Shown here: one piece after another, positions 14,493 to 37,655 of the stretch
Numbering within the stretch: the first letter of the stretch is position 1
Layout: each line of letters begins with the position of its first letter
Origin: Verrucomicrobiota bacterium
Lineage (GTDB): Bacteria; Verrucomicrobiota; Verrucomicrobiia; Verrucomicrobiales; DEV007
DNA: 64,000 bases
Assembly: GCA_020630975.1 (NCBI GenBank)
Contig: JAHDID010000033.1
Coordinates: 1-64,000 of the forward strand
Direction of reading: 5' to 3'
The notes under the pieces: model-generated
What the model saw: the letters and a program-made list of their open reading frames with translations, nothing else
Told to the model about the DNA's origin: nothing
The model's database searches: none
Made by a program: the position numbers and the translations under genes

Positions 14493-14526
14493 ACCAAACA
14501 TTTTGAATACTAGACAAGGCTAAGAT

Positions 14527-14613
14527 ATGATTTTTGCTATTTTCGTATTCCTTTTCGCTGCAGTCGTGCTCGGTATCGAGGTCATGACTTTCCTCGCGAA
14601 TCGCGGCGGCTAG
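14527..14613 (+). CDS. Small membrane peptide, 28 aa
   Basis: A short open frame, MIFAIFVFLFAAVVLGIEV then a tail ending in Arg-Gly-Gly, starts 34 bp after the Pro/Ala-rich gene. It is a single hydrophobic helix of about 16-20 residues with one Glu near its end, like the C-terminal anchor of the protein before it. It may be co-transcribed from the same promoter. No known family is recognised; only its position and clean hydrophobic composition support it. Confidence 0.45.
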   Translation: MIFAIFVFLFAAVVLGIEVMTFLANRGG

Positions 14614-14840
14614 ATCCACAGCAGGTGGCCGCCCACCCTGTTATTTTGCTTCGCTACGATAAGGGAGATCCTACTCGCTAGGGCTCCCAAATCGGAGTCC
14701 TCTCAAGCTCGGCTCATTATTGGGCTCACTAACTCGCATTTTGTGTGTAAGCACTTGCGAATTTACAACGTCACATCACGTTGTCGCGGGTCGAGGTTTC
14801 GATCCGCAAACATCAACCAAATCAAAGAATACAACATACC

Positions 14841-20324: not shown

Positions 20325-20778
20325 TATCTGAGGCTCGGCTCACCGAAAAACTCAATAAGCCAGGGTAGACAGAGAGTCTTTTCTCTCGGTGACAAAGACC
20401 GAATCTCGCCGGAACATCTCATCGGAGCAGTTCAGAAAGACATCTCCTCGTGACCACATAACTCTACATGAGGCGATACGGATCATGTCCGCTACTTATC
20501 CAACGGAGTGATCATACAGATACGCGCCCAAGCTTAGATCCACGAGCCCTATATTTAACTTAGGCTCCCCAAACACACCTCAGACCCTTATCCAATTCAG
20601 AGTCTCCAGTACTGGGTGAGGCTGTTTTCAACTGCCCGGCTTCCCAAGCCGTCGTTTAAGCCAAAGCGGTCTAAATAGAAATTCTCAAATATTCATCTAC
20701 CAGATGAGTTTCCTTTTTCTTCGTCAGCTGAGCGGCAAACTTTATATCAAAATTCGACATTTTGCCTCTGTAAGACGA
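20325..20778. other. Intergenic region holding a REP element
   Basis: About 450 bp between convergent genes. The only recognisable content is the variant B REP element at 20607-20667. No tRNA or open frame with coding character was seen. Confidence 0.55.
20607..20667 (+). repeat. REP-type element, variant B, second copy
   Basis: CAGTACTGGGTGAGGCTGTT followed by TTCAACTGCCCGGCTTCCCA and an AGCCGTCGTTTAAGCC tail. It aligns along its length with 15986-16046, with about nine substitutions. Confidence 0.75.
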
Positions 20779-21354
20779 CTAAGACGCTCTAGACCGATTC
20801 AAGATCGTAGGGAGATGAGCACAGATCGCATTACCGATCGCGAATAGAATACCTATCAACGGCGGGATTTCAGGATGCTCTAGGACGACTTCTAGTATTG
20901 GGATAAATATAGCCCCTGAGATGCCATGAGCAGCTATCGTGTAAAGGATGATTACCACTGTCACTGCCGTAAAGATCGGCGCAAAGGCTGTGTGAAACAG
21001 ACTAAAGATAGCGATCGCAACCAATACTGCAACAAACGAGTCTACATTTTCATAGCGGCTAGCAAAAAATGACGCAATCAAAAATGCAATTATCAACGCG
21101 AGTACCCAATTGACCAGTTTTAGGCGATGATTGACCCAAACGATAAAGAATAGCAGCATCAAGCTCGAATAATGAAGGATGGCACCATTCAGTCGATACT
21201 CGGTGAGCATCATAAGCGGAATAAGATAAGTTAAAAAAGTTCCGATCGCACTGAGGACGAACCATTTAGAATTGAGCTCCACCTGTGGTAACCTTCGCAT
21301 CGTAAATCCGACGATCATCGGCAGGAAATAAAATATCAGCAAAATATGCATCAA
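20779..21354 (-). CDS. Hypothetical polytopic membrane protein
   Basis: A 191-residue protein made almost entirely of hydrophobic segments, about six, with short basic loops (RRLPQ, NHRLKL, ASRYEN). No family is recognised. It starts 58 bp after the stop of the reverse transcriptase gene on the same strand, so it could be the last gene of the retron-like operon. Retrons with membrane effectors exist elsewhere, but this gene is more AT-rich than the RT and the link is only positional. Confidence 0.6.
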   Translation of the reverse strand: MMHILLIFYFLPMIVGFTMRRLPQVELNSKWFVLSAIGTFLTYLIPLMMLTEYRLNGAILHYSSLMLLFFIVWVNHRLKLVNWVLALIIAFLIASFFASRYENVDSFVAVLVAIAIFSLFHTAFAPIFTAVTVVIILYTIAAHGISGAIFIPILEVVLEHPEIPPLIGILFAIGNAICAHLPTILNRSRAS

Positions 21355-21412
21355 AACTTGAGGAGCCGAACCAATTGACTACTCGCTGGCACCTAGTATA
21401 TCACTAGCTTGC

Positions 21413-22714
21413 TTAGTCCGCCGCCTGCAGCCTAAATGGCGCAAACTTTGCAAACAGCTTAGCTCCTAGCTCGGGCTCGACCATGTAAATGTAGGCGATG
21501 TAGCCTTCTAGTTGGGCTAGGTTTTCGCCTTCTAGGATGGGTTTGCCTTGGGATAGATTGTGTAGTTGGGCGCGGACGCGGCGCTTCAGCTCCCTAGGAA
21601 CCTTGGGCGGACCTGGGGTGTTCACTGATAGGCCGGTGACCTGCTGGGGGCCGCCCTGGCGGTGGACGCGGGTCTTGTCGGTGCGGATCTGGAATCCTTC
21701 GTCGGCGACGATGCGGGTGACGCTGCCGATCATGGCACCGGTGTGGGGATCGGCTTTGTGATCGAGAGGTAGGCTAAAGGTGAGATCATCGGCGTAGCGG
21801 GTGTAGCGCCAGCCATACTTTTTCGCTAGCCCCTCTAGGCGTCGATCCATGCGTAGGCAGAGGCTATTGGTCAGGCCGGGGCTAGTCGGAGCGCCCTGGG
21901 GTAGGCAGCGGGGGCCCATGGCGATGTAGTAGGTCTTGTCGCCGTGGGTGACGACCTCGCGCGGGGCCTCGGTGCACAGGTGCGATAGTAGGATGGCGAT
22001 CGGCTCGCGGTAGCCGGCCTTGCGGAAAATGCCTTTGACTCGAGATACCGATACCGTCGGAAAAAAGTCGGCGATATCCATCTTTAGGATCACCTGCGAG
22101 CCGGTGTGGGCGGCGGCATTGGTGACGGTGGAGCGGCCGGGTAGAAAGCCGTGGGCAGCGCCATGCACGGGGAGCCGCTCGACGATGTGGTGTAGGATCC
22201 AGTGCTGTGCCGCCTTTAGCCGGGGCTTGGGTGCCCAGATGGCACGTTCCTTGCCGCTGCGCTTGGGTATGGTAAATCGATGGTAGTGGATACCGGTGGC
22301 GGCATCGCGATGGTAGGCCAGGGAGCGCAGCTCGCCGATGGTGATACCGATGGCATCGGCTAGGTCTGGGGCCTTGTCCAGTGGCGGCAGCTCATTCTCG
22401 GCGGCACGCTCCTCGGCATCGGGTAGGTCCCACTTGTCGGGAGCGTGGTCATCGGTCCAGTAGACATTTTCGCCGATGTGGACGATGTGCTTTTGCTTGT
22501 ACGCCTGCCAGGCTTTTTGCTTGATGCGGCGCTTTTCTTTAGCCTCTTCCTTTAGCTCGTTTTTGTACCGCTTCAGCTCGGCCTTCGACATATCATCGAC
22601 ATCGCGTCGTTCAACGAGGTAGCCATTAGCCTGTAGCTGTTGATTGATGTAGGCGTTCATGCCTCCAGCTTGCTGGATCTGGCGCCATATATCGTTTGGA
22701 TTGGGGTCGGACAT
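21413..22714 (-). CDS. Retron-type reverse transcriptase
   Basis: A 433-residue RNA-directed DNA polymerase. Palm and finger motifs are all present: TIPKRSGKERAIWAP (RT1), KMDIADFFPTV (212-220, first catalytic Asp), LPQGAPTSP (271-279) and RYADDLTFS with the catalytic YADD at 307-310. Two features specific to retron RTs are seen: NAAAH at 199-203 (the NAxxH motif) and VTGLSVN at 359-365 (the VTG motif that contacts the msr RNA). The domain ends with PRELKRRVRAQLHN. The first 120 residues are a charged, coiled-coil-like extension (KAELKRYKNELKEEAKEKRR), longer than in small retron RTs. It is the last clear gene of a four-gene operon, 30 bp after the SWIM/WGR gene, which leaves no room for an msr-msd directly upstream. 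Confidence 0.93.
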   Translation of the reverse strand: MSDPNPNDIWRQIQQAGGMNAYINQQLQANGYLVERRDVDDMSKAELKRYKNELKEEAKEKRRIKQKAWQAYKQKHIVHIGENVYWTDDHAPDKWDLPDAEERAAENELPPLDKAPDLADAIGITIGELRSLAYHRDAATGIHYHRFTIPKRSGKERAIWAPKPRLKAAQHWILHHIVERLPVHGAAHGFLPGRSTVTNAAAHTGSQVILKMDIADFFPTVSVSRVKGIFRKAGYREPIAILLSHLCTEAPREVVTHGDKTYYIAMGPRCLPQGAPTSPGLTNSLCLRMDRRLEGLAKKYGWRYTRYADDLTFSLPLDHKADPHTGAMIGSVTRIVADEGFQIRTDKTRVHRQGGPQQVTGLSVNTPGPPKVPRELKRRVRAQLHNLSQGKPILEGENLAQLEGYIAYIYMVEPELGAKLFAKFAPFRLQAAD

Positions 22715-22744
22715 GTTGGGAAAGTAAATATTTCGTTTCGAATA

Positions 22745-24613
22745 CTAGACAGAGGTGGCATCTAGATAGCCTTTGGCGACTAGGCGGTCGATACGATCGA
22801 GGTAGTCGCTCCTAGCGGTATCGATATGGTTGAAGCGGAGCTGCTGCACACGCAGGTCTTGGCCTACCATGCCCCAGCGAATTCTCACCTGTTTGCGATC
22901 GAGCGAGACCTGATAGACCTGCTCACCTTTCGCTGTGCGGCGGCTGTAGCTGCGCGTCTCGGTGGTGATCTGGTGGCGAGCTTTGCCGTCGGCTTTGCGT
23001 GCGGCATCGCGCTGGGCGTGGGCTAGGCGTAGTGCTACTAGGTGGGTGCAGGGGCCATCCTGTAGGCCCTGCTGGCGGAAAAGATTGCAGGTGCAGTCAG
23101 CTTTGGCGATGTAGCCATCGTCATTGATCAATAGCTGCGGGCGGTAGTCGCGTTTGTCCTCGGCTACCTCTACCTTACCGGTGATCTCTAGTCCCGAGCC
23201 ATGAATGAAGTTCTCCGACGATAGGGTCACGGCACCTTTGCGGGCGATCAGATCGTGAGCCTGTCGCTCGCGTTGGTTTCTATATTGCAGCCGATCTAGA
23301 TCCAGCGGCTCGCTAGTCAGTGGGCGTAGTCGGTAGACCTGCTGTGCCAGATCGTAGATCAGCTGGCCCTGCTGGCAGCCTAGCTGTAGCGCCTGGGTGA
23401 GCTGGGCTCCAGACAGGCTAGTGGCTGTGCCGATATCTTTACTACTGGCATACCAGGTCGACTGCAGATGCTGTACCACGGCCTCGAGATCTGCCGAGCC
23501 CTCGGTGCTCCGAGGTAGTAGTAGGTCGAATGATGCGGCCTGGCTCCAGTTAGCAGCGGTGAAGCCTGTAAGGCCGATGGTCAGCTCCATGTCGCGGCCT
23601 CTCAATATCCAAAAGCAAGGCAGACCACTACCCATGACACGCACCTCGACGGTGTCGGCCAGCGGGAGAAACTGACGCAGCAGCATAAGCCTACGGCGGC
23701 CCCATAGGCGGAGCACCTTAGCTTGTTTGCCAGTGTAGGCGCCGCTATTCGACTCGATGAGTGTCTCCCATGGCTCGAGCACCAGTCTCGGTGGCTCGCC
23801 GGGGACTAGCTCGACACGCATGCCTCGGCGTTTGCCTTTTAGGTCGGCATTCATGCGTAGCTCGCGCAGTACATTGTATAGATCGATCGGCGCGATGGTG
23901 AAGCTATCCATCGGCAGGGTCGCGGCAGACTGCACCTGTAGGAAGCCACGTATCCAGCTGTCGGGTATCTGGATCTGTTTCTCTAGCACGGCATCGGCAC
24001 GCGCTGACTCGGTATCGATAGCCACATCCTGCTGGGCGATCTCGATACGAGTCTCGCGGTAGCTGCGAAATTGGCTGATGTGATCGTATAGCGATTGGCT
24101 AAAGTCGATATTGGTCGTGCCACAGACCTTAGCGTCGTCATCGGCTGCGAATGCCTCGGGCTTTACCGATAGCTTGGCGTAGGTGCCTTCATCCTTTGAG
24201 AATACCTCGAATGCTACCTCATCGGGGTGTACGGATATGATCGGATCAAGGATCAGCCAGGCGTCGGGATCGTTGCGCAATAGCCAATCGAAGTAAGCCT
24301 GCTGTGCCTGCCAATTGTCCAGCTTGGCACTATCGCGCCGCATCCGCTGAAAGGCAAGATAGGCGGTGCGATCTTTTGGCACATAGCGGAAATCGCTACC
24401 GACGATCTGGTATAGAGTCAGCAGTGCCTCGCGCAGGCGTAGTGGTTCCTTTAGCTCGGCTGAAAAACTCACTGGATCTCGCTGCAGATTGCCAAATAGC
24501 GAAAAACTCGCCGACTCGGCGTCGCTGACCTGTAGTCGGCTAGCGCCGGCGTAGACCAGCGTGCTCGCGGTCTGCTGGGGCGTATCTAGGGCTGTATCGG
24601 TATCGCTGCTCAT
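22745..24613 (-). CDS. SWIM zinc-finger + WGR domain protein (retron partner)
   Basis: A 622-residue protein. A SWIM zinc finger (CTC near residue 505, then PCTH near 520, followed by LVALRLAH) is typical of DNA- or protein-binding partners. The C-terminal 75 residues form a WGR domain (VYQVSLDRKQVRIRWGMVG), a nucleic-acid-reading module best known from PARP1. The N-terminal 450 residues are unassigned and may include winged-helix segments. From memory, type XIII retrons encode such a protein (called WHSWIM). Its start overlaps the stop of the 2094-residue gene by 4 bp (ATGA), implying translational coupling; the RT gene follows by 30 bp. No nuclease or NADase active site was recognised. Confidence 0.85.
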   Translation of the reverse strand: MSSDTDTALDTPQQTASTLVYAGASRLQVSDAESASFSLFGNLQRDPVSFSAELKEPLRLREALLTLYQIVGSDFRYVPKDRTAYLAFQRMRRDSAKLDNWQAQQAYFDWLLRNDPDAWLILDPIISVHPDEVAFEVFSKDEGTYAKLSVKPEAFAADDDAKVCGTTNIDFSQSLYDHISQFRSYRETRIEIAQQDVAIDTESARADAVLEKQIQIPDSWIRGFLQVQSAATLPMDSFTIAPIDLYNVLRELRMNADLKGKRRGMRVELVPGEPPRLVLEPWETLIESNSGAYTGKQAKVLRLWGRRRLMLLRQFLPLADTVEVRVMGSGLPCFWILRGRDMELTIGLTGFTAANWSQAASFDLLLPRSTEGSADLEAVVQHLQSTWYASSKDIGTATSLSGAQLTQALQLGCQQGQLIYDLAQQVYRLRPLTSEPLDLDRLQYRNQRERQAHDLIARKGAVTLSSENFIHGSGLEITGKVEVAEDKRDYRPQLLINDDGYIAKADCTCNLFRQQGLQDGPCTHLVALRLAHAQRDAARKADGKARHQITTETRSYSRRTAKGEQVYQVSLDRKQVRIRWGMVGQDLRVQQLRFNHIDTARSDYLDRIDRLVAKGYLDATSV

Positions 24614-27600
24614 GCTGACTGTTTGGCGCGGGCTCGCTTCGATCTGCGCAGGCCTCGCCAGGCGGCTTTGCGTAGTTCTTCGTCGTATTCTTCGGTTTTA
24701 CCTATCTTGGCCAGTTCGTCCTCGGCGGCCTCGGTGCCAGTAGCGGCCAAGGCCTCTATCGCACCAAGTCGAGTCAGGTCGGGTAGAGCCGTATCGGCTG
24801 CTGTCTTTACCAGACCTGCCTGCTCACCGCTGGCCACGGCGTGGGGTAGCACCACTGCCTGGTAGTGGGCGTGGTCCAGGTGGCTGTGGATGACTTTCTT
24901 GGTATGCTTGCCGGTATGGGCGGCGACTCGGTCGAATGCGGTCCGATCGGAGAGTAGGCTCTCGCCGATGGCGTCGGCCTGCTCTGGTGCTAGCTGCACT
25001 AGGGCACCTATCGCTAGATCCCGTGTCTGCCGGTGGCTGGTGTGGGATGCTTGCTCTAGTACCTTTAGCACTGCTGCCGATCCGATGCCTTCGGCCAGTG
25101 CTTTTATGACATCGGCGCCGAGTCGATCTCGGTGCTCCTGCTCAATGCCACTATCCGGCAGTCGGTCGTGCAATGCCAGCAGAGGTGGCTCGGCACCGGA
25201 CTGGCCGCAGGCCCAGACTAGCATCGATACTGCCTCTAGGCTCGAGTCGAGCTGATTGCGCAGTTGGTAGTTGTAGCTATCGTTCGCGATGGCGGCGGTG
25301 AGGCGCTCGGCTTCGCCTAGCCATTTGTCGATGGCCTCGGCTAGATCTTTGGTATGGCTTTTGTCGACGCCTAGTATGCGGGCCGCTAGCACGACCGCCT
25401 CGGCACGATCCGATGTCGTCAGGGTATGGATCGCTTCCTTTAACGGTAGCTTATCTAGATCTAATAGGTCATTGGCCAATGCAGCCTGAAAGTCGTCATC
25501 GCCAAGGTGTGGGTAGATATCTAGGATCTGCTGGGCAGTCGCCTTGCTACGTATCCGCAGGGCCGGATCGTTTGCTTTATCATCGGGATCTTCATCCCAA
25601 TAGACATTTCCGCCCTTGGCGCTGGCTAGATCTGGCTCGATGGAGTCTGCTCCGAATAGTCGGCGGGCACTCTGTAGGGCATCGCAGGTGTTGTAATCAC
25701 TATGCTCGAGTAGGTGGAGCAGCACATTGCGGGTAGCTGGATCGTCGTTGTAGCCTAGTGCTAGCACGGCGGCTTCTCTCGAGCTCCAGCGCTCCCAGCC
25801 ATCGATCTGCGCCCGCTGGCGGACTAGCCCCCAGCCATCTCGAGTATCGAACCAGCGCAACCCTAAGATGGCACGGGTAGCTAGGCCGTCGGAGCTATCG
25901 ACCAAGCGGGAGAGGATCGTAAAGATCTTTTCACTCTGATCAGATTTACCCATGTGCCCGATGGCCTCGGTGGCAGCCTCCTGTAGAGCATGCTCGTCGT
26001 CATCGGCTAGCTGTAGCAGCACTTCGACGGCATTCTCATCGCCCAGCTCGCCGAGCGCCTCTACCGCACGGATACGTAGATACACATCGTCGAATAGCTC
26101 GACGGCGGAGAGCAATATATTCATACCATCGCCCTGGCCAGCGCGGGCCAGGCCCTCGGCTGCGATGAAGCGAGTCGTCGGAGACTTGTGCTCTAGGCCT
26201 GCTAGTAGAGGCTTGTTGTCACCACCGCGATACTTCAGTCGCCAGCCGACTATCTCCATCGCCTGGTCGCGCAGATCAGCCTCGGCATGGTGGGTGAGTG
26301 TCGCTAGAGCAGAGTCGACGGCATTAGTCGCAGAGACTTTTGCGGCCGATAGCGCCTGGTAGGGCACATTTCCGATCTCGGTGCCTTTCTCTAGTAGGCT
26401 GGCGATGACGTCGTCGTGGCGTGGGTGCTGGCCCTCCATCCAGGAGAAATCGCTAGTCCGCTCGTCCCAGTCGTAGGGAGCATCCTGATCGTAGCCGGAG
26501 ATGCGGTAGATGGTGTCGACGACACCACTCACTAGCTTTTTATCCTCGAGTAGCGGCAGTAGCCGTGGCACCACCTCGGGCTGGCGGAAAGAAGCGATCA
26601 CCCCGAGTAGCAGGTAGTCGTCGATATGCTCGGCCTGGTCCCCTAACCGATCGACCAATGCATCTGGGGTGCGTGGATCGCCTAGGCGGCTGAGTCCAGA
26701 GATGATGTGGTGCTGATAATCGGTAGCTTTGTCGCTATCTAGTAGCGAAAGTAGGGCATCGTAGGCTTCTTTCTCGCGAAAATTAGCCAAGGCGGTGGCA
26801 GCCGCGCAGCGAGTGTCTAGGTATTTGGAGTCTAGGGCTTTGACCAATACCGGCTTCACTTTCCTGTCTGCCTCGTAGTCGGCGACTAGCCAGCCAAGCG
26901 CTCGCGAACGCATGCCGGTGTATTTGGCGTCAAGTAGACGGCTGCCAGTTTCGGCGTCACCTATATCTGCGGCTAACAGCTCTGCCGCGCGGACCGATAG
27001 GTCATCGTCTCGATTTAGCGCGACATTCTCTAGTACACTCGCGGCTTGTTTTTTCGCCGATCCAGAGCTGAGCAGCTTCAGTCCCTCGACGCCCATATCG
27101 ATCTGGCCAGACTCGATGCAGTCGCTAGCTAGACGGGTGCGGTCGGTCTCTAGTAGTAGCAATCCATCGAACGATACTCGGCGGATCTCCTGCTGAGCAT
27201 CGGATAGGAATGGAGCCATACTCTGGGTGACCGAGGCGGCACTGATGGCATCGCGATGGCCGAGACGGATCAGGTGGCGGATAGCGTGTAGGCGTATCGT
27301 CTGCCCCTGCGACTCATCGCGGGCGAGACCGACGAAGGTACCAAATACCAGATCCTGGAGATCGGCTAGCTCGGGGCGAGTCTCTGGTCGATCGCCTACC
27401 TCTGGGGCACCGCCAAAACGCTCCTGAAAAGTCTGCCAAGCCAGCTGCCAGGCACTGGGCTTTTCCTCACCCAGCAGCGGCATGATGTGTAGCAGGCGTA
27501 GCTTCACCCGTTCGTCGTCGCCATGGGTAAACCAGGCTGCCACCGAGCGATACATTTCCGCGGGTAGATCCCATTTTTCCCGTTCATTGAAGATACCGAC

Positions 27601-30600
27601 GACATACTCCTCTAGCCCTGTCTCTGTGGCGTAGGCCTCGACTAGCTGAGCGCAGCTGTAGCGCACCTGGGCATCCTGAGAGGCTAGACCAGCTAGTGCT
27701 AGACTCGGCTCGGCATCGCTACTGATCATCGTCAGCAGTGCTAGGATATGCGAGGCTACCTGAGCGGTAGCTCGGTCGGGATAGTCGACAAATTGCACAA
27801 TCTCATCCCAGCCACTTTCGAAAGTCATCGATGCGGCGAGTCGCTCGGTAGAGGAAATGACATCTGCGGACGCGCGATCGGCTAGTATAGGGAATACGGC
27901 TGAGAGGTCGCTACGATTTAGCGCCAGTGCGAGTGCTGCACGATTCTTTACCTCAGCATCCTCGTGCTGTAGCAGAGGCTCTAGGCGCTCCTCGTCGTCC
28001 GGGCCAGTCACCATGACCATGGCTCGGGCGGCGGCCTGACGCAGGTCGGCGTGCTCGGAGCGTAGTAGAGAAAATACTAGGTCGGCAGCGCCGGAGTCGC
28101 CCATCTCGGTCAGTCCGATCAGAGCGGAGATCAGGCGCTGCTTCCAGGTAGGGATATCGTCGCTATCGAGCGGCTCGGGCTCGCTAGCAGTCTCTAGTAG
28201 AAAGGTGAAGGCCTCTGGGGCGCCGTGTTTCGCTAAGGCTATCGCTGCCTGTAGCTGGGTATCGACGTGCGGGCTAGTCAGTGCCTGCTTCACCGAGTCG
28301 GTGGCACTGCTATCGATGAGGTAGTCGAGAGCGGCTAGGCGGGTGGCCTGATCCTCGTCGTGGATAGCCTGTACTAGTGTGCTCTGGGCATCTTTAGTCG
28401 CTAGACGGGTGAGACTCTCGACGGCGGCTCGGCGCAGGTCTGGATAGTCGCTATCTAAGGCTACAGCCATCGGCGCTGCGTCACGCTTTTTGGTATGCTT
28501 CAGCGCGTAGTCGAATGCCTCCCTGCGTAGATCAGAGTCAGGATCATTAAACATCTCCAGCAGTAGATCCCACGCCCATGGCTCGCGGATCTGCCCCATG
28601 ATCTCGGTCAGCACATCGCGACGGATCTCGGGCCGGGTGCTGCCTAGGACAAAGCGTAGCGACTCGGGGCCACCGCCACCGATCTGCTGGTTTAGAACTA
28701 GTTTGAATGCTTCGCCATGGATCTTTTCTTTACGATCGTTCAGCGCACGGAGTAGCAGTCCCCAAGCTGGGTCGGTAGGCTTTTTCGGTGGTTTCCTTTT
28801 GACGATCGCTACTAGGGTGCGCAGGCCTCGGCTACGGATATCTTCGTGCTCGGATGATAGGCCGGCCTCGGCTGCGGAGATTGGTGTCTTGCTATAGATC
28901 GAGTCGAGCCCAGAGTACGCCGCATCGCGCACCTCGGAGGCATCATCGTCGAGCATCGATACTAGGCGCTGTACCACGCGCTGGTCATCTAGATTGGCTA
29001 GGGCGCGGCAGACTTTGGCGCGAAATAGCGGGTCGCGCTCGCGGCTCAGCTGCAGTAGCAGCCCCAGTGCACGAGTATCGCCGAGTAACGATAGCCCGTG
29101 GGCACCAAGTAGCGCGGTATCTAGCTCGCGAGCAGCCATGGCCTGTACCAGTGGAGCGTAGTCGTCGGCGACTAGACCGTCTACTGGCTGCGGCTTTAGT
29201 TTGGGCGGAGCCTTGGCTTTCTTCTCGGCATTGAGCTGCTCGATCTCCCAGATCTGGCGGTGGTAGTCGGTATCTCGCGAGCGCACCACATCGGCTAGGC
29301 GCGGCGCGGTGAGTAGTGATAGGTAAAAGGCGGTGTGGCGCACCGATGCATCGGTATCGTCACCGGCACGGCGAAGAGCTGACTTCACCCGACTGTCGTC
29401 TAGCAAGCCGCGCTGGTATAGCCGCACTACAGAGCGCTCGCGCACGTCTGGGTAGGCGCTGCCCAGTGCCTCTAGATTGGCCTCGGGAGAGTCGGCGGGG
29501 TAGATCGTCTCGAGAGAGTCGATGACCTGTAGGCGTGTCTCGGCCAGCTCGCTATCTAGGGCGCGGATCAGTGCTGACATGGCCAGATCATCCTGCCCAG
29601 CTAGCTCGGCGATGGCGCGGACAGCCTCGGCACCGACTGTCGGGTGGGGCAGAGCCTGCAGTAGTGGGTGCAGGTCGGACTCGCCGCATAGCGGCCGTAG
29701 CCCGGCAAAGGCGGCCTGGCGCACTGCCTGATCACTGTGTGCTAGATGAGCCTCTAGCATCTCCACTGTCTTCGGATGGTCGAATGTCGGCAACATCTCG
29801 ACGGCCTGTAGCCGCAGCTTCGGATCGATCTCGACGCTGATGTGATCATTGACGATACGCAGCGAGCCGCGATCGCCATAGCTGGCCAGTGCCTCCAGCG
29901 CTTTTTGCCGAGTCCGAGCATCTTTGTCGGCCAGCTCCTTCTTGGCTTTGGCGTAGGCGTCGACTGCCTTTGTCGTAGCGTGGCCAAATTTGCCATCGGC
30001 ACCAATCAAGAAAAAGCGCAGCGAATTGTCGGCGCAGGCAGCGACTAGATTGGGCCGATCGTGAATGGTCGCTAAGGTCAGATCGGCGACGGTGTGCATA
30101 CCATCGTCGAGAGTCACTGGGCGAGTGCCGCCGGAGCGTATCCATGACTTGCAGGTCTGGTCCTGGCTACCCGTCACGACACGACCACCGGGCACCAGCA
30201 GCATCGCGCTGATGGGTTTTTCATGACCGTGGGCTCGGCCTCGGTCCTCTGGCTCTAGCTTGCCGCGAGCATGAGTGAGTAGAAATTTTCGATCCTGCCC
30301 GGTGGAGAAAAAGCGCAGCTCCTCGGGCTCGAATAGCAGAGCGGTGACCTGGCCTTCGTGCAGCTTTTCCGTCTCGCTGAGCAGATATTCCTCCTGCTGC
30401 TCGGCTTCGTATACCGAGATATGGCCAGACTTGTAGCCGAGTGCTAGCCATGCACCAGTCGGGTCGGAGGCTAGGGTGGTGGCGGGATTTACCTCGTCGT
30501 CGAATGCAATGGTCTGGATCACCTGGCTACTGGCGTGGTCGTAGACCGCTACCTGCGTCGGCTGAAGTATAGCTAGTCTACCTGGTGACAGTAGCGCCAT

Positions 30601-30894
30601 GGCTACGATCGTGGCTCCGCTATCGGTAGCGATAGTGGATAGAGATTTTCCACCTAGTGGGTAGTGATAGACATTTCCTGCGGCATCGCCTACCCAAAAG
30701 CACTTCTCGTCTGCGACGACACAACTGCCGCCTGACTCTAGTGGGAAATCCTGTAGCGATAGCTTCTCGCCATCTAGTAGGTAAAAGGCTCCTCGAGTAT
30801 CGGGCTTTTGGTAGCTAGTGGCGAAGGCTACAGATTTGCCTATAGCGGCTAGGGCCTGGAGCTTGCCTCGGTATGTCTGGTGGCTGGTATTCAT
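24610..30894 (-). CDS. Giant WD40 + HEAT/ARM repeat protein (retron partner)
   Basis: A 2094-residue protein. Residues 1-310 form a WD40 beta-propeller; blades such as LHEGQVTALLFEPEELRFFS and GHEKPISAMLLVPGG are clear. From about 310 to 2070 it is an almost uninterrupted array of 30-40-residue HEAT/ARM helical repeats, seen as recurrent phrases of the type D.D..VR.AA..AL and LGD..A...LL.LA.D. The C-terminus is very basic (WRGLRRSKRARAKQSA), fitting nucleic-acid contact. It is probably a large curved scaffold that binds the other operon products or a target nucleic acid. ATGA overlaps at both ends couple it to the BRCT gene upstream and the SWIM/WGR gene downstream. It corresponds to the ARM component of type XIII retrons as I recall it, though it is very large. 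Confidence 0.88.
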   Translation of the reverse strand: MNTSHQTYRGKLQALAAIGKSVAFATSYQKPDTRGAFYLLDGEKLSLQDFPLESGGSCVVADEKCFWVGDAAGNVYHYPLGGKSLSTIATDSGATIVAMALLSPGRLAILQPTQVAVYDHASSQVIQTIAFDDEVNPATTLASDPTGAWLALGYKSGHISVYEAEQQEEYLLSETEKLHEGQVTALLFEPEELRFFSTGQDRKFLLTHARGKLEPEDRGRAHGHEKPISAMLLVPGGRVVTGSQDQTCKSWIRSGGTRPVTLDDGMHTVADLTLATIHDRPNLVAACADNSLRFFLIGADGKFGHATTKAVDAYAKAKKELADKDARTRQKALEALASYGDRGSLRIVNDHISVEIDPKLRLQAVEMLPTFDHPKTVEMLEAHLAHSDQAVRQAAFAGLRPLCGESDLHPLLQALPHPTVGAEAVRAIAELAGQDDLAMSALIRALDSELAETRLQVIDSLETIYPADSPEANLEALGSAYPDVRERSVVRLYQRGLLDDSRVKSALRRAGDDTDASVRHTAFYLSLLTAPRLADVVRSRDTDYHRQIWEIEQLNAEKKAKAPPKLKPQPVDGLVADDYAPLVQAMAARELDTALLGAHGLSLLGDTRALGLLLQLSRERDPLFRAKVCRALANLDDQRVVQRLVSMLDDDASEVRDAAYSGLDSIYSKTPISAAEAGLSSEHEDIRSRGLRTLVAIVKRKPPKKPTDPAWGLLLRALNDRKEKIHGEAFKLVLNQQIGGGGPESLRFVLGSTRPEIRRDVLTEIMGQIREPWAWDLLLEMFNDPDSDLRREAFDYALKHTKKRDAAPMAVALDSDYPDLRRAAVESLTRLATKDAQSTLVQAIHDEDQATRLAALDYLIDSSATDSVKQALTSPHVDTQLQAAIALAKHGAPEAFTFLLETASEPEPLDSDDIPTWKQRLISALIGLTEMGDSGAADLVFSLLRSEHADLRQAAARAMVMVTGPDDEERLEPLLQHEDAEVKNRAALALALNRSDLSAVFPILADRASADVISSTERLAASMTFESGWDEIVQFVDYPDRATAQVASHILALLTMISSDAEPSLALAGLASQDAQVRYSCAQLVEAYATETGLEEYVVGIFNEREKWDLPAEMYRSVAAWFTHGDDERVKLRLLHIMPLLGEEKPSAWQLAWQTFQERFGGAPEVGDRPETRPELADLQDLVFGTFVGLARDESQGQTIRLHAIRHLIRLGHRDAISAASVTQSMAPFLSDAQQEIRRVSFDGLLLLETDRTRLASDCIESGQIDMGVEGLKLLSSGSAKKQAASVLENVALNRDDDLSVRAAELLAADIGDAETGSRLLDAKYTGMRSRALGWLVADYEADRKVKPVLVKALDSKYLDTRCAAATALANFREKEAYDALLSLLDSDKATDYQHHIISGLSRLGDPRTPDALVDRLGDQAEHIDDYLLLGVIASFRQPEVVPRLLPLLEDKKLVSGVVDTIYRISGYDQDAPYDWDERTSDFSWMEGQHPRHDDVIASLLEKGTEIGNVPYQALSAAKVSATNAVDSALATLTHHAEADLRDQAMEIVGWRLKYRGGDNKPLLAGLEHKSPTTRFIAAEGLARAGQGDGMNILLSAVELFDDVYLRIRAVEALGELGDENAVEVLLQLADDDEHALQEAATEAIGHMGKSDQSEKIFTILSRLVDSSDGLATRAILGLRWFDTRDGWGLVRQRAQIDGWERWSSREAAVLALGYNDDPATRNVLLHLLEHSDYNTCDALQSARRLFGADSIEPDLASAKGGNVYWDEDPDDKANDPALRIRSKATAQQILDIYPHLGDDDFQAALANDLLDLDKLPLKEAIHTLTTSDRAEAVVLAARILGVDKSHTKDLAEAIDKWLGEAERLTAAIANDSYNYQLRNQLDSSLEAVSMLVWACGQSGAEPPLLALHDRLPDSGIEQEHRDRLGADVIKALAEGIGSAAVLKVLEQASHTSHRQTRDLAIGALVQLAPEQADAIGESLLSDRTAFDRVAAHTGKHTKKVIHSHLDHAHYQAVVLPHAVASGEQAGLVKTAADTALPDLTRLGAIEALAATGTEAAEDELAKIGKTEEYDEELRKAAWRGLRRSKRARAKQSA

Positions 30895-33800
30895 GCGGCT
30901 ACTACCTCCTCCTGGTCGTTAGTATCGACTTGCCACTTGGCATTGATCCGAGTCATCGCGACTAGGCAGGCCTCGAATTCGCTTTTCCCCCGAGACTGCA
31001 TAAACTCGGTCAGCACCGGTGCGACTAGCTCGGCAAATGCCTGATCCTCTAGCGCGAGGTCGCGGATCGTCTCGATCAAAAATAGTTTGGCTTTGCGATG
31101 AGGGAGAGGGGCGAGCGTCTCCCGCAATCGGTTGCCCGTAGATTTCTCTGGAGGGCCTGGTGGTATCTCGTAGAGCACTCGGCGTAGTAGTGCCTGTAGT
31201 GCGGCTGGCTCGGCAGGTGGATTCTCGGGACGCTGAGGGACGCCGTCGCCTAGGTTTTGTGCCGCTAGCTCGGCATCGCGTTTGGCTTTTTTACCCGTAG
31301 TGACCTGGGTGGCTAGTTGTGGCTGCCAGCCGGTGGTCGCATCGCGGTGGCGGTATAGCGCCCAGAATGATCGGATGACAAAGGCGCGCACCTGACGATC
31401 GGGGCTCTCGGTCAGGCGGAATAGCTCCTCGGGTAGACGTAGCCGTGGATTGCGATCGATCAGTAGCATACCCAGGGCGCGGGTAGCGGCGTCGTTGGAT
31501 TCGCAAAAGCTATACACCGCATCGGGCGTCAGCAGATCGTGCGGGATGCGGTAGGTCTTGTGCTCGGGTGCATCGTCTGCGGTCAGGGCGCGAGCGACGA
31601 ACTCGCGAACCTCGGTGTAGGGCGACTCGCAAAGATCGATGATACCGCCGATGGGTGGCTGCCAGCGGGCGAATTCCCAATGGGCATACTCCAGCGCCAT
31701 GTCGCGCAGACGCTTGCGCGAGTCGAAGAACAGTGGCTTGAACTGCTCGAATGTAGCAAAACCATCCGGCACCTCAGCACCTGGGTCGACGGGCCGGTCA
31801 GTCTGCTTTAGGCAGATCTCGGGGTGATGTCGAAGTAGGTATTTGCGGGCGAAATTCGATAGTGGGTCATCCTCGCGCTTGGCGTCGACCAGCATCGACC
31901 ACAGCCTCTCGCAGCCAGCGGTGATGGCGTCGTCGGAAAACTCGCGAACCTCGCCTGCTAGCATCTGAAGGAATGCGGTCTCGGATATGATCTTCAGCTC
32001 GGCACCCTCGTCGCGGAGCGACTCCGCCTTTAGCTGTTTACTACCTTTGCGGCCTTCGCCATATAGCGGGCTGCCATCGTCGCCTATGACGAGGTAGTCG
32101 AGTGTCTTGGCCACTCCGGAGGCATTGGCACCACCGGCATCGGTGACTTTTTTCTTGGCCTCGGCTCGAGTCATGGTAGCTAGCTTGCCAGTGAAGAGAA
32201 ACTTCTGCCCACCCAGATCGATCGTGCTGTCTGCCTCGGCGGTAGGGGCTTCGGCTGGTGTATCCTCGGCCACAGCGAAGTCGGCGGGTAGAAAGGCGCG
32301 GATCATGTAGTCGACCGCGTAGTCGTGGTAGCGATTTTCACTGCGCTCGACCAGCTGCATGAGCCAATCGAAGCCGATCTGATCTGGCGAGAATTTACGG
32401 ATATCGCTGAGCCAGTTAAAAATATCCACCGACAGCTCCTCCGAGTAGGTGATGCCTTCGTTCTTGGGATCTTTCTGAAAGGCCTGTAGCCAGGTATCGG
32501 TCTGCCAGGTGGGGTGAAATGCCACAGCCTTTAGGAAATCGACTGGTAGCTGCTGGGGATCCAGGTCGCCATCGGCCACCCACTGCAGTAGGGAGCCTCG
32601 GCATCGAGTGTTAAGTAGAAATCGCTTCAAGACCTCGGTATCGAGATCCTGTGGACCTAGCTGCCCGATCTGCTGTAGAGCGAAGTAGCTAGGATTATTT
32701 CCCTCCACTGGTGCGTCCTCGATCAAGGCTACAAAGTAGTCATGGCCGAGTTTCTTTGCGGTATAGAGTTTCAGTAGGTGGGCTTCCAAAAACGAAGCTG
32801 TCTCGCGCTGGCCGCCGGATAGGTAAAAGCGCTGCTGAAACCACTCTGGGGTCAGCTCGCTAGCGCCGAAATGTTTGCGCAGTGCCTCGACTACCCAGTC
32901 TTTTGCCCGAGTGGCGTCGAGTAGCTCGCCCCACGCGGGTAGGCCGATGTCTTTGCGCGCGTCGCGCTCCAGCACCAGCTGCCGAGTCAGCTCCTGGGCT
33001 AGGCCGCTGCTAGATTTGGCATAGCGAATCAGCTGCGGTAGCGGTATATCGCGGGCGTAGGTCTTGGCGTATTGGTAGCCATAGTTGCGAGCGGTCTGCG
33101 AGTCGGACTCGAGCAGCCCTAGCACGCCATCGTGCAGGCCCAGTTCGCGGAATGCTGATTGCTCAAATTTAGGGACATTCTCCAATACCCAGATGACAAA
33201 ATCGTCGACGACTGATCGGCGCACAGCCAGCAGCCGCTGGACCCAGTCGGGCTCGACATCACGCAGCGAGGCGCGGAAGTCGCTCTTTAGCCCATCAATG
33301 GCGAACTCTAGCACCAGATCCGCCGAAGCCCGCTCCAGTAGCGAAAACAGGGGCCTGGGACTGCGCCGCCAGTGGTCGGGATAGGCACGCATCTTTTGGA
33401 CTGACTTATTACCCGGAATGCTAAGACAGCGGTTGCGATTGAAGCGGCCTCCCTCGTGCGCCAGGATGTGGGCGGCAATCCACGTATCCTGCAGCTGCCA
33501 ACGGCTCAGGTGCGGGTAGGCGACTAGGAAGTCGATCGCTACATCAGGATAGATCGCGGGAAAAGTCTGACCGATACGGCGCAGGTAGCGCCAGGCTCGC
33601 CGACGCATGTACTGTAGCGTCTGCAGGCTGGGCCCATGGTAGGAGCGATAGACACTGCTGCTAGCCTGTATGTCGATCCGAACAGCAATAGCAGCAAACA
33701 CCTCGGTGTCGCCACGCTCTTCCGCCTTTTTGAAGATCTTTTTTATCGCCTTCCACGGGCCATATTCTAGCGGCACCTCGCGCAATACTTCGAGCAGCGT

Positions 33801-34136
33801 CGTGCGGGTAAAGACATCGGTGCCCTCCCACAGCTCCTCGATCACCTCATGCACCCGCAGGCGATCCGGGCAGTCGATCTCGGCATCGGTCGACTCGATA
33901 GCGGCGAGCTGTTGCAGGCGGTACTGTTGCTGTTCTTCGACATCTTTCTTACGAAATTCACTGGTCCGAGTCTCGCGCAGGAAATGAGTCAGCGTCAGAG
34001 CCCCCTCTCGGTAGGGCTTACCATCGGCATCTTCGGTAGGCAGGTCAGTCTCGCAAAGAGAGACGATCATCTCTGCCACTTTGGGATCTCTTGCTGCTAC
34101 CGCTTTACGAATTTGCCGGAGGGTGACTTGAGACAT
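30891..34136 (-). CDS. Helical-repeat protein with internal BRCT domain (first gene of retron operon)
   Basis: A 1081-residue protein and the first gene of the four-gene operon. Residues about 640-725 form a BRCT domain closely like that of NAD-dependent DNA ligase: GGQKFLFTGKLATMTRAEAK, then DAGG, DYLVIGDDG, GSKQLKAESLRDEGAE and an ISETAFLQML helix. The parts before and after (1-620 and 740-1081) are alpha-helical with ARM/HEAT-like character, including HDLLTPDAVYSFCESNDAAT. BRCT domains recognise phosphoproteins or DNA ends and nicks. A BRCT subunit is not part of any retron type I can recall, so this may be a variant-specific component. Its stop overlaps the next start by 4 bp. Confidence 0.85.
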   Translation of the reverse strand: MSQVTLRQIRKAVAARDPKVAEMIVSLCETDLPTEDADGKPYREGALTLTHFLRETRTSEFRKKDVEEQQQYRLQQLAAIESTDAEIDCPDRLRVHEVIEELWEGTDVFTRTTLLEVLREVPLEYGPWKAIKKIFKKAEERGDTEVFAAIAVRIDIQASSSVYRSYHGPSLQTLQYMRRRAWRYLRRIGQTFPAIYPDVAIDFLVAYPHLSRWQLQDTWIAAHILAHEGGRFNRNRCLSIPGNKSVQKMRAYPDHWRRSPRPLFSLLERASADLVLEFAIDGLKSDFRASLRDVEPDWVQRLLAVRRSVVDDFVIWVLENVPKFEQSAFRELGLHDGVLGLLESDSQTARNYGYQYAKTYARDIPLPQLIRYAKSSSGLAQELTRQLVLERDARKDIGLPAWGELLDATRAKDWVVEALRKHFGASELTPEWFQQRFYLSGGQRETASFLEAHLLKLYTAKKLGHDYFVALIEDAPVEGNNPSYFALQQIGQLGPQDLDTEVLKRFLLNTRCRGSLLQWVADGDLDPQQLPVDFLKAVAFHPTWQTDTWLQAFQKDPKNEGITYSEELSVDIFNWLSDIRKFSPDQIGFDWLMQLVERSENRYHDYAVDYMIRAFLPADFAVAEDTPAEAPTAEADSTIDLGGQKFLFTGKLATMTRAEAKKKVTDAGGANASGVAKTLDYLVIGDDGSPLYGEGRKGSKQLKAESLRDEGAELKIISETAFLQMLAGEVREFSDDAITAGCERLWSMLVDAKREDDPLSNFARKYLLRHHPEICLKQTDRPVDPGAEVPDGFATFEQFKPLFFDSRKRLRDMALEYAHWEFARWQPPIGGIIDLCESPYTEVREFVARALTADDAPEHKTYRIPHDLLTPDAVYSFCESNDAATRALGMLLIDRNPRLRLPEELFRLTESPDRQVRAFVIRSFWALYRHRDATTGWQPQLATQVTTGKKAKRDAELAAQNLGDGVPQRPENPPAEPAALQALLRRVLYEIPPGPPEKSTGNRLRETLAPLPHRKAKLFLIETIRDLALEDQAFAELVAPVLTEFMQSRGKSEFEACLVAMTRINAKWQVDTNDQEEVVAA

Positions 34137-34169
34137 GGGAAATAAACAAACAGCAGTTTAGCCATCTCC

Positions 34170-34221
34170 GAGACCTAGTGGGGATCCGAAGTCGAGACGG
34201 ATACATTCCCCACTGGGTCTC
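34170..34221 (-). ncRNA. Strong hairpin in the 5' leader of the retron operon
   Basis: GAGACCTAGTGGGGATCCG (34170-34188) pairs with the complementary strand segment 34198-34221, with one wobble and a 5-nt bulge around a 9-nt loop. It lies 34 bp upstream of the first start codon. No T-run follows on the minus strand, so it is not an intrinsic terminator in the operon's direction. It may be a regulatory leader or part of a retron RNA. Confidence 0.5.
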
Positions 34222-34319
34222 TTCGATAGGTTTTATTTTAAAAAAGCGACTGAATGCGGCAAATAAGCTGTGCATCGGCCATTGATAATCAGAGAGAATC
34301 AACGACTGGGATCTACTAC

Positions 34320-34570
34320 TCGACCTGGGACATGGAAGGCTCACTGATTCGCCGGGGTATACTACCCCTCCGGCCTTGCGGAATTGCGAAGCGCGTGATT
34401 GTCCCAGACCGCTGAGGCCGGAGGGGTAGTATACCCCGATCAGCGAATCTGAAACAGCCTTCCTTGTGAAGTATGCGAAGTAAGACGCTCAGATGGCGCA
34501 ACGCCATCCTGGTACAAAGCACCAAGCTAGACCTGGGTATCCGAGCACAAACTGTCTCCGCCATATTCAA
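34320..34570 (-). ncRNA. Candidate structured RNA (possible msr-msd) upstream of the retron operon
   Basis: Read on the minus strand, a TAGC precedes two small hairpins, CTTGGT/ACCAGG and GATGGCG/CGCCATC (34492-34508), which are followed by one very long hairpin. The long hairpin is nested: GGAAGGCT/AGCCTTCC (34334-34341 with 34456-34463), GATTCGC/GCGAATC (34346-34352 with 34443-34449) and a perfect 23-bp stem (34354-34376 with 34415-34437) with a 38-nt apical loop. Small hairpins then a long hairpin is the layout of an msr-msd RNA. No convincing a1/a2 pairing was found. The long hairpin could instead be a REPIN, as its arms contain GGAGGGG next to a mini-palindrome, and an 8-bp direct repeat GACCTGGG (34322 and 34530) flanks the block. 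Confidence 0.35.
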
Positions 34571-34704
34571 ATCGGCACGAGGTTAGTCAAGATGGGGGAA
34601 GCTTGGCAATGGTAAAAAGAAGTTTTTTTCGAGATGACCTAGATAAGCCCGAACCACACCCCTGCCTGTCGATCAGTTTTTAGCTGACCGACTTGTCTAA
34701 AAGT

Positions 34705-36138
34705 TTAAGCGAGCAAATCTTTCACAACGTGGCCATGGACATCCGTTAACCGGAAATCACGGCCTTGGAAGCGATACACTAACTGCTCGTGATCGAAACC
34801 TAGCTGGTGCAGAATCGTGGCCTGTAGGTCGTGAACATGCACACCATTCTCTGCTACGTTGAATCCCAGTTCGTCTGAGGCTCCATATTCGTAGCCTGCT
34901 TTTAGGCCGCCACCTGCCATCCACATGGTGAAACAATCTGGGTAGTGATCGCGACCTAGATTATTACTCTTTGCGGTGCGACCCTCGCGGAATGGTGTGC
35001 GACCAAATTCGCCACCCCAGACGACTAGCGTATCGTCGAGCAACCCGCGCTCTTTCAGATCATTGATCAAAGCCGCGATCGGTTTGTCCATCGTCGCACA
35101 CTTCTTCGTGAGACCATCGGTAATCGCATTGCCACCACTGGTACCGTGGAAGTCCCAGCCCCAGTCAAAGAGCTGAACAAAGCGCACCCCCTGCTCGACT
35201 AATCGACGGGCTAGTAGACAATTGTTGGCCAGACTCGCCTGACCGGGCTGCGCCCCATAGGCCTCGAGTGTCTTGGGATTCTCCTTTGAGATATCCATAA
35301 CCTCGGGCACAGCTGTCTGCATACGGAAAGCTAACTCATACTGCGCGATACGAGTCAGCGTCTCGGGATCGCCCATCTCTGCGCTCTGCAACTCGTTCAG
35401 ATCGCGCAGCGCATCCAGAGTCTTGCGCCGCATCCCTCGGTTCATCCCCTGCGGGTCCGATGAGTAGAGCACCGGGTCCCCTTTGGAGCGACACTGGACG
35501 CCTTGGTAAACACTAGGCAAAAAGCCGGAGCCAAATGAATTCTTACCACCATTGGGTTGGGTACCACTAGAGATCAGGACTACAAAGCCAGGCAAATTCT
35601 CATTCTCCGAACCTAGACCATAGGTCACCCACGAACCCATCGACGGACGACCAGAGCGTGGCCCACCGGTGTAGATCAATAACTCAGCCGGAGCGTGGTT
35701 GAATTGGTCGGAGTGCATCGAGTGAACCATACACATCTCATCGGCAATACCGTGAAAGTGAGGTATCGCATCCGACATCCAGATCCCATTTTCGCCACAT
35801 TGCTTCCACTCGCGCGGCGAACCCATCAGCTTCGGCGTGCCGGAGGTAAAGGCGAATGTCTTGCCTTTGATAAACTCATCTGGGCACTCCTGATCGGTGC
35901 GTTTCACCAGCTCAGGTTTGTAGTCAAACATATCGAGGTTCGGCGGTGAACCTGTCATATGTAGGTAGATGACTCGCTTGGCCTTTCCAGGAAAGTGGCC
36001 GGGCTTCGGCGCTAGCGGGTTGACTACTTTTTCGTCGGCTAATAGTGAATTTAACGCTATACCTCCCAAGCCAGCTGCTGAGTGCTTCAGAAAATGTCGG
36101 CGGGTACCGAGTTGCAGTTTTTCTAGTCTTGGGTCCAT
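34705..36138 (-). CDS. DUF1501 protein, tandem copy 1
   Basis: A 477-residue Tat-exported DUF1501 protein (GTRRHFLKHSAAGLGG signal). Conserved stretches include VIYLHMTGSPPNLDMFD, WDFHG, VVWGGEFGRTPF, GRDHYPDCFTMWMAGGG and the YRFQGRDFRLTDVHGHVV tail. It is nearly identical to the next copy, with differences concentrated at the N-terminus, around SGGNAITDGLTKK (residues 330-345) and around AKSNN (390). It ends the operon that begins with the sigma factor at 43188. A 350-bp internal segment is identical in DNA to copy 2. Confidence 0.92.
   Translation of the reverse strand: MDPRLEKLQLGTRRHFLKHSAAGLGGIALNSLLADEKVVNPLAPKPGHFPGKAKRVIYLHMTGSPPNLDMFDYKPELVKRTDQECPDEFIKGKTFAFTSGTPKLMGSPREWKQCGENGIWMSDAIPHFHGIADEMCMVHSMHSDQFNHAPAELLIYTGGPRSGRPSMGSWVTYGLGSENENLPGFVVLISSGTQPNGGKNSFGSGFLPSVYQGVQCRSKGDPVLYSSDPQGMNRGMRRKTLDALRDLNELQSAEMGDPETLTRIAQYELAFRMQTAVPEVMDISKENPKTLEAYGAQPGQASLANNCLLARRLVEQGVRFVQLFDWGWDFHGTSGGNAITDGLTKKCATMDKPIAALINDLKERGLLDDTLVVWGGEFGRTPFREGRTAKSNNLGRDHYPDCFTMWMAGGGLKAGYEYGASDELGFNVAENGVHVHDLQATILHQLGFDHEQLVYRFQGRDFRLTDVHGHVVKDLLA
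35258..35607 (-). repeat. 350-bp perfect repeat, copy in DUF1501-1
   Basis: Identical base for base to 36738-37087, offset 1480 bp. The flanking parts of the two genes differ at many synonymous sites, so the identical tract is sharply bounded. Confidence 0.9.
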
Positions 36139-36184
36139 GGTTAGCGCTCTCTAGTTGTCGGTCAGCTGTAGGCTGCCTAAGTTG

Positions 36185-37618: not shown

Positions 37619-37655
37619 GGTTAATGTTCTCTAGTTGTCGGTCAGTTACTGCCAT

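Follow-up and report, generated by a model that had tools for sequence, protein, structure and literature searches.

The stretch of DNA analyzed here (the window) comprises 64,000 nucleotides of a contig from a Verrucomicrobiota bacterium and carries, on its minus strand, a four-gene retron operon preceded by a conserved non-coding RNA. In the order of transcription, the genes encode a 1081-residue HEAT alpha-solenoid protein with a BRCT domain of the LigA/RFC1 class at residues ~641-727 (30891-34136), a 2094-residue protein of WD40 and HEAT repeats (24610-30894), a 622-residue SWIM/WGR protein (22745-24613) and a 433-residue retron-type reverse transcriptase (RT; 21413-22714). The four open reading frames (ORFs), which are joined by two 4-bp overlaps and one 30-bp gap, lie where an earlier reading of the letters without database searches (the sequence-only reading) had placed them; the span of 21413-34136 given for the system by that reading is correct for the genes and incomplete for the whole, since the conserved RNA (34531-34308) falls outside it. 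The motifs YADD, NAAAH and VTG which it had read in the RT are all present in the translation, and its recognition of a type XIII retron core agrees with the profile scores, in which the PADLOC model RT_XIII reaches 533 bits (E 1e-160) compared to 319 bits for the next RT model in PADLOC. The type XIII class is said to go back to the classification of Mestre et al. 2020.

PADLOC represents this class by the models RT_XIII, SWIM_XIII, HEAT-ARM_XIII and WGR_XIII, and the RT, SWIM and HEAT-ARM proteins of the window match the corresponding models (SWIM_XIII at E 2.5e-195). All four proteins are assigned in this way and, as judged from these profile matches, the locus is a type XIII retron. The proposal that the 1081- and 2094-residue proteins form an undescribed extension of the system is ruled out, because HEAT-ARM_XIII models span both proteins whole (PDLC02921 the former, PDLC02919 the latter over its full length) and both are therefore known components; the PDLC02921 profile has 869 positions, compared to the 1081 residues of the window protein. 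The HEAT/ARM and SWIM/WGR character of the RT's partners, also proposed from the letters, is supported by Pfam together with PADLOC, and more firmly across the relatives than in the window. Pfam matches in the window are strong for RVT_1 (E 3e-18) and for HEAT_2 in the 2094-residue protein (E 1e-76, accompanied by matches to WD40-type propellers); BRCT (E 0.0047) and SWIM (E 0.053) both fall below the Pfam cut-offs, and WGR is found at E 0.15. Among relatives, BRCT is detected in 27 of 29 (threshold E 1, best 1.7e-6), SWIM in 26 of 27 (best 2e-5) and WGR in 14 of 27 (best 4e-4), the last two at a threshold of E 10. The BRCT insert is present in 28 of 29 aligned relatives, the relative without it being L051. 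(Loci are numbered with L and genomes with G; the window is L035.) The SWIM cysteines and histidine of the window protein are C507, C509, C522 and H524, and WGR forms its C terminus.

The RNA precedes the first gene of the operon, at a distance of 11.6 kb from the RT (34308-34531, minus strand), and runs from TCTAGC to GTAGTAGATCCC. It was apparent as a strong fold (z -8.5 against 100 shuffles) with a 24-bp perfect inverted repeat, and four relatives carry the same element. Its order is that of UAGC, two hairpins within a closing helix, a long hairpin and the sequence CAGGT..GTAGTAGA; at the level of sequence, the UAGC start resembles a priming site and stands where one would be expected. The msr part (34449-34531), which is described by the covariance model R1, contains the UAGC start and the two covarying hairpins inside the short closing helix. 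The msd stem consists of a 5' arm (34415-34438) and a 3' arm (34353-34376) which together form the inverted repeat, at a site which is hypervariable in relatives, and the arms enclose an apical region (34378-34411) which is conserved in relatives (CTGGGACAA...). A conserved 3' element, CCAGGTCGAGTAGTAGA (34312-34328), may act as the region in which reverse transcription starts. The candidate a1 segment GTGCTCGG (34541-34548), which is weak, pairs with an equally weak candidate a2, CCGATGCAC (34270-34278). All of these features are on the minus strand.

The structure of the msr part is supported by covariation. In an alignment of five sequences made with MAFFT, both partners have changed in 6 of 17 pairs and 96.5% of cells are paired, neither of which was reached in 500 shuffles; a further measure, the number of pair types, was reached by 35 of 500. 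In 33 distinct rows fitted to the model, an alignment which leans towards structure, both partners have changed in 10 of 17 pairs (0 of 500 shuffles) and the further measure was reached by 3 of 500. The R1 model recovers two loci on which it was not trained, L051 (E 6e-18) and L052 (E 9e-13), with nothing else below E 0.1 in the remaining loci of the 26-locus search. Of the 33 four-gene loci 31 carry the RNA, or 26 of 28 when the five training loci are excluded, and in the two loci which lack it the contig ends ~207 and 54 bp before the gene. Copies usually stand just before the HEAT-BRCT gene; the RNA of L052 lies ~100 bp downstream of the RT, that of L051 lies 2.6 kb upstream of the operon, and L058, L072 and L076 each have two tandem copies. 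Between the RNA and the operon of L051 (1641-3619) are two ORFs which by eye are ParA- and ParB-like, in a locus whose HEAT protein has no BRCT. Of 34 RNAs, 28 have an a1/a2 duplex which no more than 5 of 100 shuffles can match. The evidence points to a structured msr-msd-like RNA belonging to the retron operon and putatively serving as its template. No Rfam family is found in 20300-35000 at E up to 1, nor in the whole window or 12 related loci at the gathering thresholds.

The four genes are kept together beyond the window. The protein matching PDLC02921 was found in 1 of 387 genomes sampled from the window's phylum (E up to 1e-40), the one being the window's own; at E up to 1e-60 it was found in 3 of 392 genomes sampled from the phylum Planctomycetota, two of them new, in 30 of the 102 genomes in the order to which L003-L006 belong (metagenome-assembled genomes titled Singulisphaera, Planctomycetia, Planctomycetota and Gemmataceae), and in 1 of 6 genomes of another order, which was G498 again. 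The four genes occur in the same order and in one stretch in 25 of 33 genomes, a few of which have one gene split into two frames. In 7 of the remaining 8 (G799, G801, G802, G808, G388, G389 and G390) the operon is interrupted by contig ends. In the eighth, G846, other genes follow the HEAT-BRCT gene; the possibility that this is an orphan HEAT-BRCT gene with its RNA is ruled out by the presence of the RT on another contig, which implies that the operon there is split or misassembled. A three-gene form, consisting of a WGR-HEAT protein, a SWIM protein and the RT, is found in L022, L023 and a plasmid of Methylobacterium bullatum (L109). A different conserved RNA lies between SWIM and RT in this form (in L007, before an RT without SWIM), and in its four sequences there is again a hairpin of which the apical loop is conserved and the stems differ. 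On the M. bullatum plasmid the three-gene retron (14430-14745) falls within a stretch that bears no annotated features.

The msd stem is the part of the RNA which varies. It was analyzed in the 23 of 34 operon-linked RNAs which have exactly equal length, the other 11 (L035, which is the window RNA and two bases longer, L036, L038, L039, L051, L052, L057, L058_5360, L059, L065 and L081) being excluded because their length deviates or because the motif search did not place them; the variable stem of L038, L057, L059 and L065 is largely or wholly missing. In the 23 RNAs a stem of 26 bp is formed by positions 10-35 with 67-92, and 594 of its 598 pair cells are Watson-Crick, with 4 C-A and no G-U pairs. 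All four pair types occur in 24 of the 26 stem columns, and the bases flanking the stem are conserved. G-U pairs are tolerated in RNA, yet they are rare here, which suggests that pairing is maintained at the level of DNA, through selection or through templated correction. Identity in the stem is unrelated to identity in the flanks (Spearman -0.06 over 253 pairs): the conserved parts of the tandem copies in L076 are 100% identical and their stems 31%, those in L072 are 97.5% identical and their stems 50%, and L060 and L061, from different genomes, are 94% identical in the conserved parts and 31% in the stems. Some sub-motifs are shared, since among 29 stems 17 pairs score 9 or more, compared to a mean of 3.5 and a maximum of 8 in shuffles. 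As a separate observation, one arm of the msd stem in L039 (1256-1413) is largely a tandem repeat of the heptamer AAAAGGT, with the complement on the other arm.

Copies of the RNA are also dispersed through the genomes which carry the operon. Scanning R1 over the 102 genomes of the Planctomycetota order (E up to 1e-4) gave at least 317 matches in 30 genomes, operon-linked copies included, with up to at least 36 per genome, a median of 7.5 and five genomes with one match; these counts are lower bounds, because 44 candidates per genome were scored under strict filters. The HEAT-BRCT gene is carried by 29 of the 30 R1-positive genomes, the exception being G811, which has a single match near a contig end, and the only gene-carrying genome without a match is G808, in which the operon is cut just before the gene. 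A sample of 60 regions from 7 genomes, drawn from the best-scoring listed matches, contains 65 copies. At least 22 of 26 stem pairs are kept in 58 of the 65, of which 51 are in exact register and 50 fully paired, and among 1508 stem cells there are 2 G-U, 5 C-A or A-C and 4 other mismatches. The neighbouring genes of the dispersed copies include no common family: the four largest clusters appear on inspection to consist mainly of reading frames that run through the RNA, and the fifth is found at 7 loci.

Combining the 58 dispersed copies with at least 22 stem pairs and the 23 operon-linked RNAs gives a set of 81 stems. Among the 299 pairs of stems from the same genome, the median identity is 9 of 26 positions and the highest 18; the 2941 pairs from different genomes have the same median, with 12 pairs reaching 18 or more, compared to 0-1 such pairs over all pairs in each of 20 shuffles. 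As far as the sampled sequences go, the stems are largely non-redundant within a genome. Recurrent stems include one which is identical in G792 and G794 and another which agrees at 25 of 26 positions in G806 and G795. Between genomes, 21 pairs of places resemble each other in their flanks, and in the 19 of these for which both stems are available 3-15 of 26 stem positions agree; at one place in G792 and G794, the msr is identical at 83 of 83 positions and the upstream flank to 89% over 1230 nt, and the stem agrees at 11 of 26. The flanks are similar on both sides in four pairs, and matches on one side could represent paralogous places.

Many stems have internal dyad symmetry. Of the 81 stems, 31 contain an uninterrupted dyad whose arms measure at least 6, compared to 10.9 in dinucleotide shuffles. 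With arms of at least 5, the excess is found at spacer 0 (20 compared to 6.1 expected) and spacer 4 (21 compared to 6.1), and spacers 2, 3, 5 and 6 likewise exceed expectation; no such excess is seen at spacer 1 (8 compared to 6.7) or at spacers from 8 upwards. In 29 stems the same test was mixed, with some spacers clear and others not, and it became clear at 81. On a looser palindrome score the mean lies above that of shuffles, with few single stems above. Stems which recur between genomes were counted separately in the motif and dyad tests. One shared methylation motif was sought among the 29 stems with 16 candidate motifs and was not found: GTAC occurs 8 times compared to 7.4 in shuffles, and among the 16 motifs only nominal excesses were seen for CCGG (23 occurrences in 17 of 29 stems compared to 15.1, reached by 21 of 2000 shuffles) and AATT (4 compared to 0.8, reached by 5 of 2000).

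Structure prediction adds information about the proteins. The AlphaFold2 model of the SWIM protein, made from 27 sequences, has a mean predicted local distance difference test (pLDDT) score of 79.8, and its residues 49-362 match sliding clamps in Foldseek (E down to 1e-7), all 50 rows listed being PCNA, DnaN or other clamps. Alignment with VIA-align gives Z 15.6 with PCNA (3.0 A over 215 of 245 residues) and Z 15.6 with a 9-1-1 subunit (3.7 A over 239 residues). The SWIM protein is thus predicted to have a PCNA-like clamp-fold domain. The fold would be shared with the PCNA, 9-1-1 and DnaN clamps; the protein differs from them in that it has no match to them at the level of sequence and is fused to SWIM and WGR. 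The model of the HEAT-BRCT protein has a mean pLDDT of 81.6, and its BRCT is close to those of LigA (2.1 A over 78 residues) and RFC1. The BRCT family profile also finds RFC1 (1.2e-6) and LigA (1.7e-6), matches for which the alignment profile is required, since phmmer with the single window protein finds nothing in the PDB at 0.01. Outside the BRCT, the fold search returns generic alpha-solenoids. T649, G650, K697, K700 and K703 are kept in 28 of 29 relatives; the Thr-Gly pair and the lysines are presumably those of the 5'-phosphate pocket in BRCT domains of the LigA/RFC1 class, to which an Arg at position 657 (present in only 19 of 29 relatives) may also belong. BRCT domains of the RFC1 and LigA type recognize the ends and nicks of DNA, and in PARP1 the WGR domain senses DNA breaks. 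WGR is placed on the HEAT protein in the three-gene form and on the SWIM protein in the form found in the window, a difference which hints that the HEAT and SWIM proteins may work together.

The interpretation favoured here, to which roughly an even chance is given, is that the four-gene type XIII retron and its own upstream RNA may constitute a putative anti-phage complex with exchangeable baits in the stems of its multicopy single-stranded DNAs (msDNAs). Acting both in cis and in trans, the single RT would copy the RNAs into msDNAs, the hairpin stems of which would serve as double-stranded DNA baits, often with dyad-symmetric sites, and the HEAT and WD40 proteins would scaffold a complex with the clamp-fold SWIM-WGR protein. 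A phage methylase, nuclease or other site-specific DNA-binding protein would modify, bind or cut the bait, upon which the complex would change state and infection would be stopped, probably through the action of the DNA-binding modules (clamp fold, BRCT, WGR and SWIM) on phage or cell DNA and not through a classical toxin. A stem of constant length whose sequence is replaceable and which frequently contains dyads fits the idea of an exchangeable bait. The bait set appears to consist of one in the window's genome and to be a library in the related Planctomycetota, which would suit a wider form of this idea. The broader proposal, which is held with somewhat less than even confidence, is that of a retron immune repertoire, in which one RT and a clamp-BRCT-WGR complex might be served by dozens of dispersed, trans-acting msr-msd genes; every gene would encode an msDNA with its own palindrome-rich stem of fixed length, and the stems would be exchanged as cassettes, so that many phage enzymes which modify or bind DNA would be watched at once.

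The usual picture of a known retron is that of a single RT with a single msDNA. If the proposal is true, up to 36 or more template genes per system would amount to a germline-encoded library of DNA baits, and it becomes testable whether a retron owes its phage specificity to the sequence of its stem; the presence of clamp-like, BRCT and WGR modules would in turn suggest a retron that senses DNA ends or replication structures and does not release a classical toxin. Part of the published background is compatible with such a system. According to one review, the msd is exchangeable while the pairing of RT with msr is specific (PMC6868368), a combination which would let one RT serve many templates. 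In published retrons, activation follows when the msDNA is altered by a phage product: a phage adenine methylase triggers Squ1 and, together with a glycosidase, Asa1, and both carry GATC in the non-coding RNA (PMC12548924). A commentary refers to Dcm-like methylation of the Ec86 stem and to the binding of phage SSB to Eco8 msDNA, and describes the connection of msDNA sequence to recognition as still unclear (PMC13158370).

Several results weigh against this interpretation. The window's own a1/a2 duplex is matched by 24 of 100 shuffles and is thus no better than shuffled sequence, and a clear duplex is found in only 32 of 64 dispersed copies. The window's genome has one strong R1 match and one weak match (E 0.07), with 150 of 1176 candidates scored, and the share of intact copies in the dispersed sample is probably overstated, because the sample was taken from the best-scoring matches. 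No four-base palindrome is common to all of the 29 stems. A memory of phage DNA in the stems, of the CRISPR kind, was also sought: when these stems were joined with Ns and compared with phages, no match was obtained even at E 10, a result so empty that the sensitivity of the search for short pieces is itself doubtful; exact patterns of three stems gave 0 matches in viral contigs, as did a pattern for the msr core. As regards the proteins, the Foldseek superpositions on single clamps are loose (root-mean-square deviation ~7-10 A), no Pfam clamp family is found in the 27 SWIM relatives at E up to 10 in a search whose HMMER filters drop most weak matches, and the SWIM alignment profile finds no chain in the PDB at E up to 1; the domain is called clamp-like, a claim at the level of the fold, because the sequence search finds no clamp family. 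In the four proteins, as far as they were searched, no toxic enzyme domain is recognizable, as had already been remarked from the letters, and no catalytic domain was recognized which would explain the killing step.

The strongest of the other explanations, although itself rather unlikely, is that this is an ordinary type XIII retron in which the stem is selected for pairing and length only and has no role as bait; its sequence would drift, correction templated by the hairpin would maintain the complementarity of the arms, and palindromes would be by-products of template switching. The near-perfect complementarity, the near-maximal entropy of the columns, the constant length in 23 of 34 RNAs and the lack of a motif common to all stems are all compatible with this, as is the capacity of the msd to encode arbitrary sequence, reported in the review PMC6868368. 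Drift does not, however, readily account for whole stems which differ beside conserved parts that are 100% identical, or for the place at which an msr identical at 83 of 83 positions and an upstream flank of 89% identity adjoin a stem agreeing at 11 of 26, which look like replacement; the recurrence of stems between species also weighs against this explanation, and dyads which are enriched at spacers 0 and 2-6 and not at spacer 1 are not obviously mutational in origin.

The dispersed RNAs could, with still lower probability, be retrotransposed or otherwise mobile msr-msd copies, partly decayed, which were disseminated along with the RT and play no part in immunity. The lack of a common neighbour family would be expected of such copies, as would a clear a1/a2 in only half of them and the 7 of 65 without a good stem. 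Msr-msd-like dispersal may also have a precedent in the msDNA-like sequences of Nannocystis exedens which Lampson and Rice 1997 and Lampson 2002 reportedly treat. A simple copy would, however, retain its stem, and the 299 pairs within a genome are no more alike than those between genomes (median 9 of 26); stem pairing is moreover maintained in 58 of 65. It is least probable, and indeed very unlikely, that the msDNA stems are decoys or regulators which mimic operators for dimeric DNA-binding proteins of the host, in a regulatory role. The dyad-symmetric, operator-like arms of many stems would suit this explanation; against it, PADLOC files the proteins as defence, and the window stem, the only one searched in this way, occurs nowhere else in its own genome with up to 2 mismatches.

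Comparison with known systems places the window's locus apart in several respects. The type XIII retrons of L022, L023 and L109 have three genes, compared to four in the window, and their RNA lies between SWIM and RT, whereas that of the window lies upstream of the whole operon. In the retrons triggered by methylases, Ec86, Asa1 and Squ1, with which Sen2 is reportedly grouped, a structured DNA stem has likewise been proposed as the sensed element; the stem of the window family differs in being replaced as a block, with many variants in relatives. A complex of msDNA with protein would be a feature shared with Retron-Eco8 if the proposed model is right, but the effector of the latter is an OLD nuclease, and none is recognizable in the window locus. 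The nearest precedent for dispersed copies within one genome is provided by the msDNA-like repeats reported for N. exedens; in the present family, the frame of the RNA is conserved and the stem is exchanged. In the full-text literature covered, outside which lie most subscription papers, the 2020 classification and the 2024 census, no paper visibly describes the RNA, hypervariable msd stems, a retron clamp or dispersed msr copies, and the RNA is not described in the portions seen of PMC9252829, PMC12548924, PMC12262390, PMC7159879 and PMC8867640. Priority for the RNA and the stem library is not claimed, nor is stem exchange put forward as exclusive to type XIII.

Some further features were noted around the retron. 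In the interval that separates the first gene from the RNA, a 15-bp inverted repeat (34170-34221, 93% complementary) is possibly a terminator or regulator, and in L037 (1008-1121) a large inverted repeat with 57-nt arms (86% complementary) lies just upstream of the retron RNA. Downstream of the RT by 62 bp, a minus-strand ORF (20779-21351) encodes a 190-residue hydrophobic, probably membrane protein with no Pfam match. The idea that it is a hidden effector is not supported, as the gene at this place differs in five relatives: the nearest gene past the RT is on the opposite strand in L046, L004, L051 and L052, and is a 321-residue ORF in L005. Beyond it, a 964-residue ORF (17430-20324, plus strand) with no Pfam match at 0.001 is convergent to the retron. 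Upstream of the retron (34705-42645, minus strand), two adjoining DUF1501 genes, each of 477 residues, adjoin a PSD1/PSCyt gene and a FecR/Laminin_G gene. A cyanobacterial origin, suggested by a sequence motif, is rejected for lack of the PSII family. The window's genome also contains a second retron-like RT match (L034; G000:C126:62240-63001), which is 35% identical.

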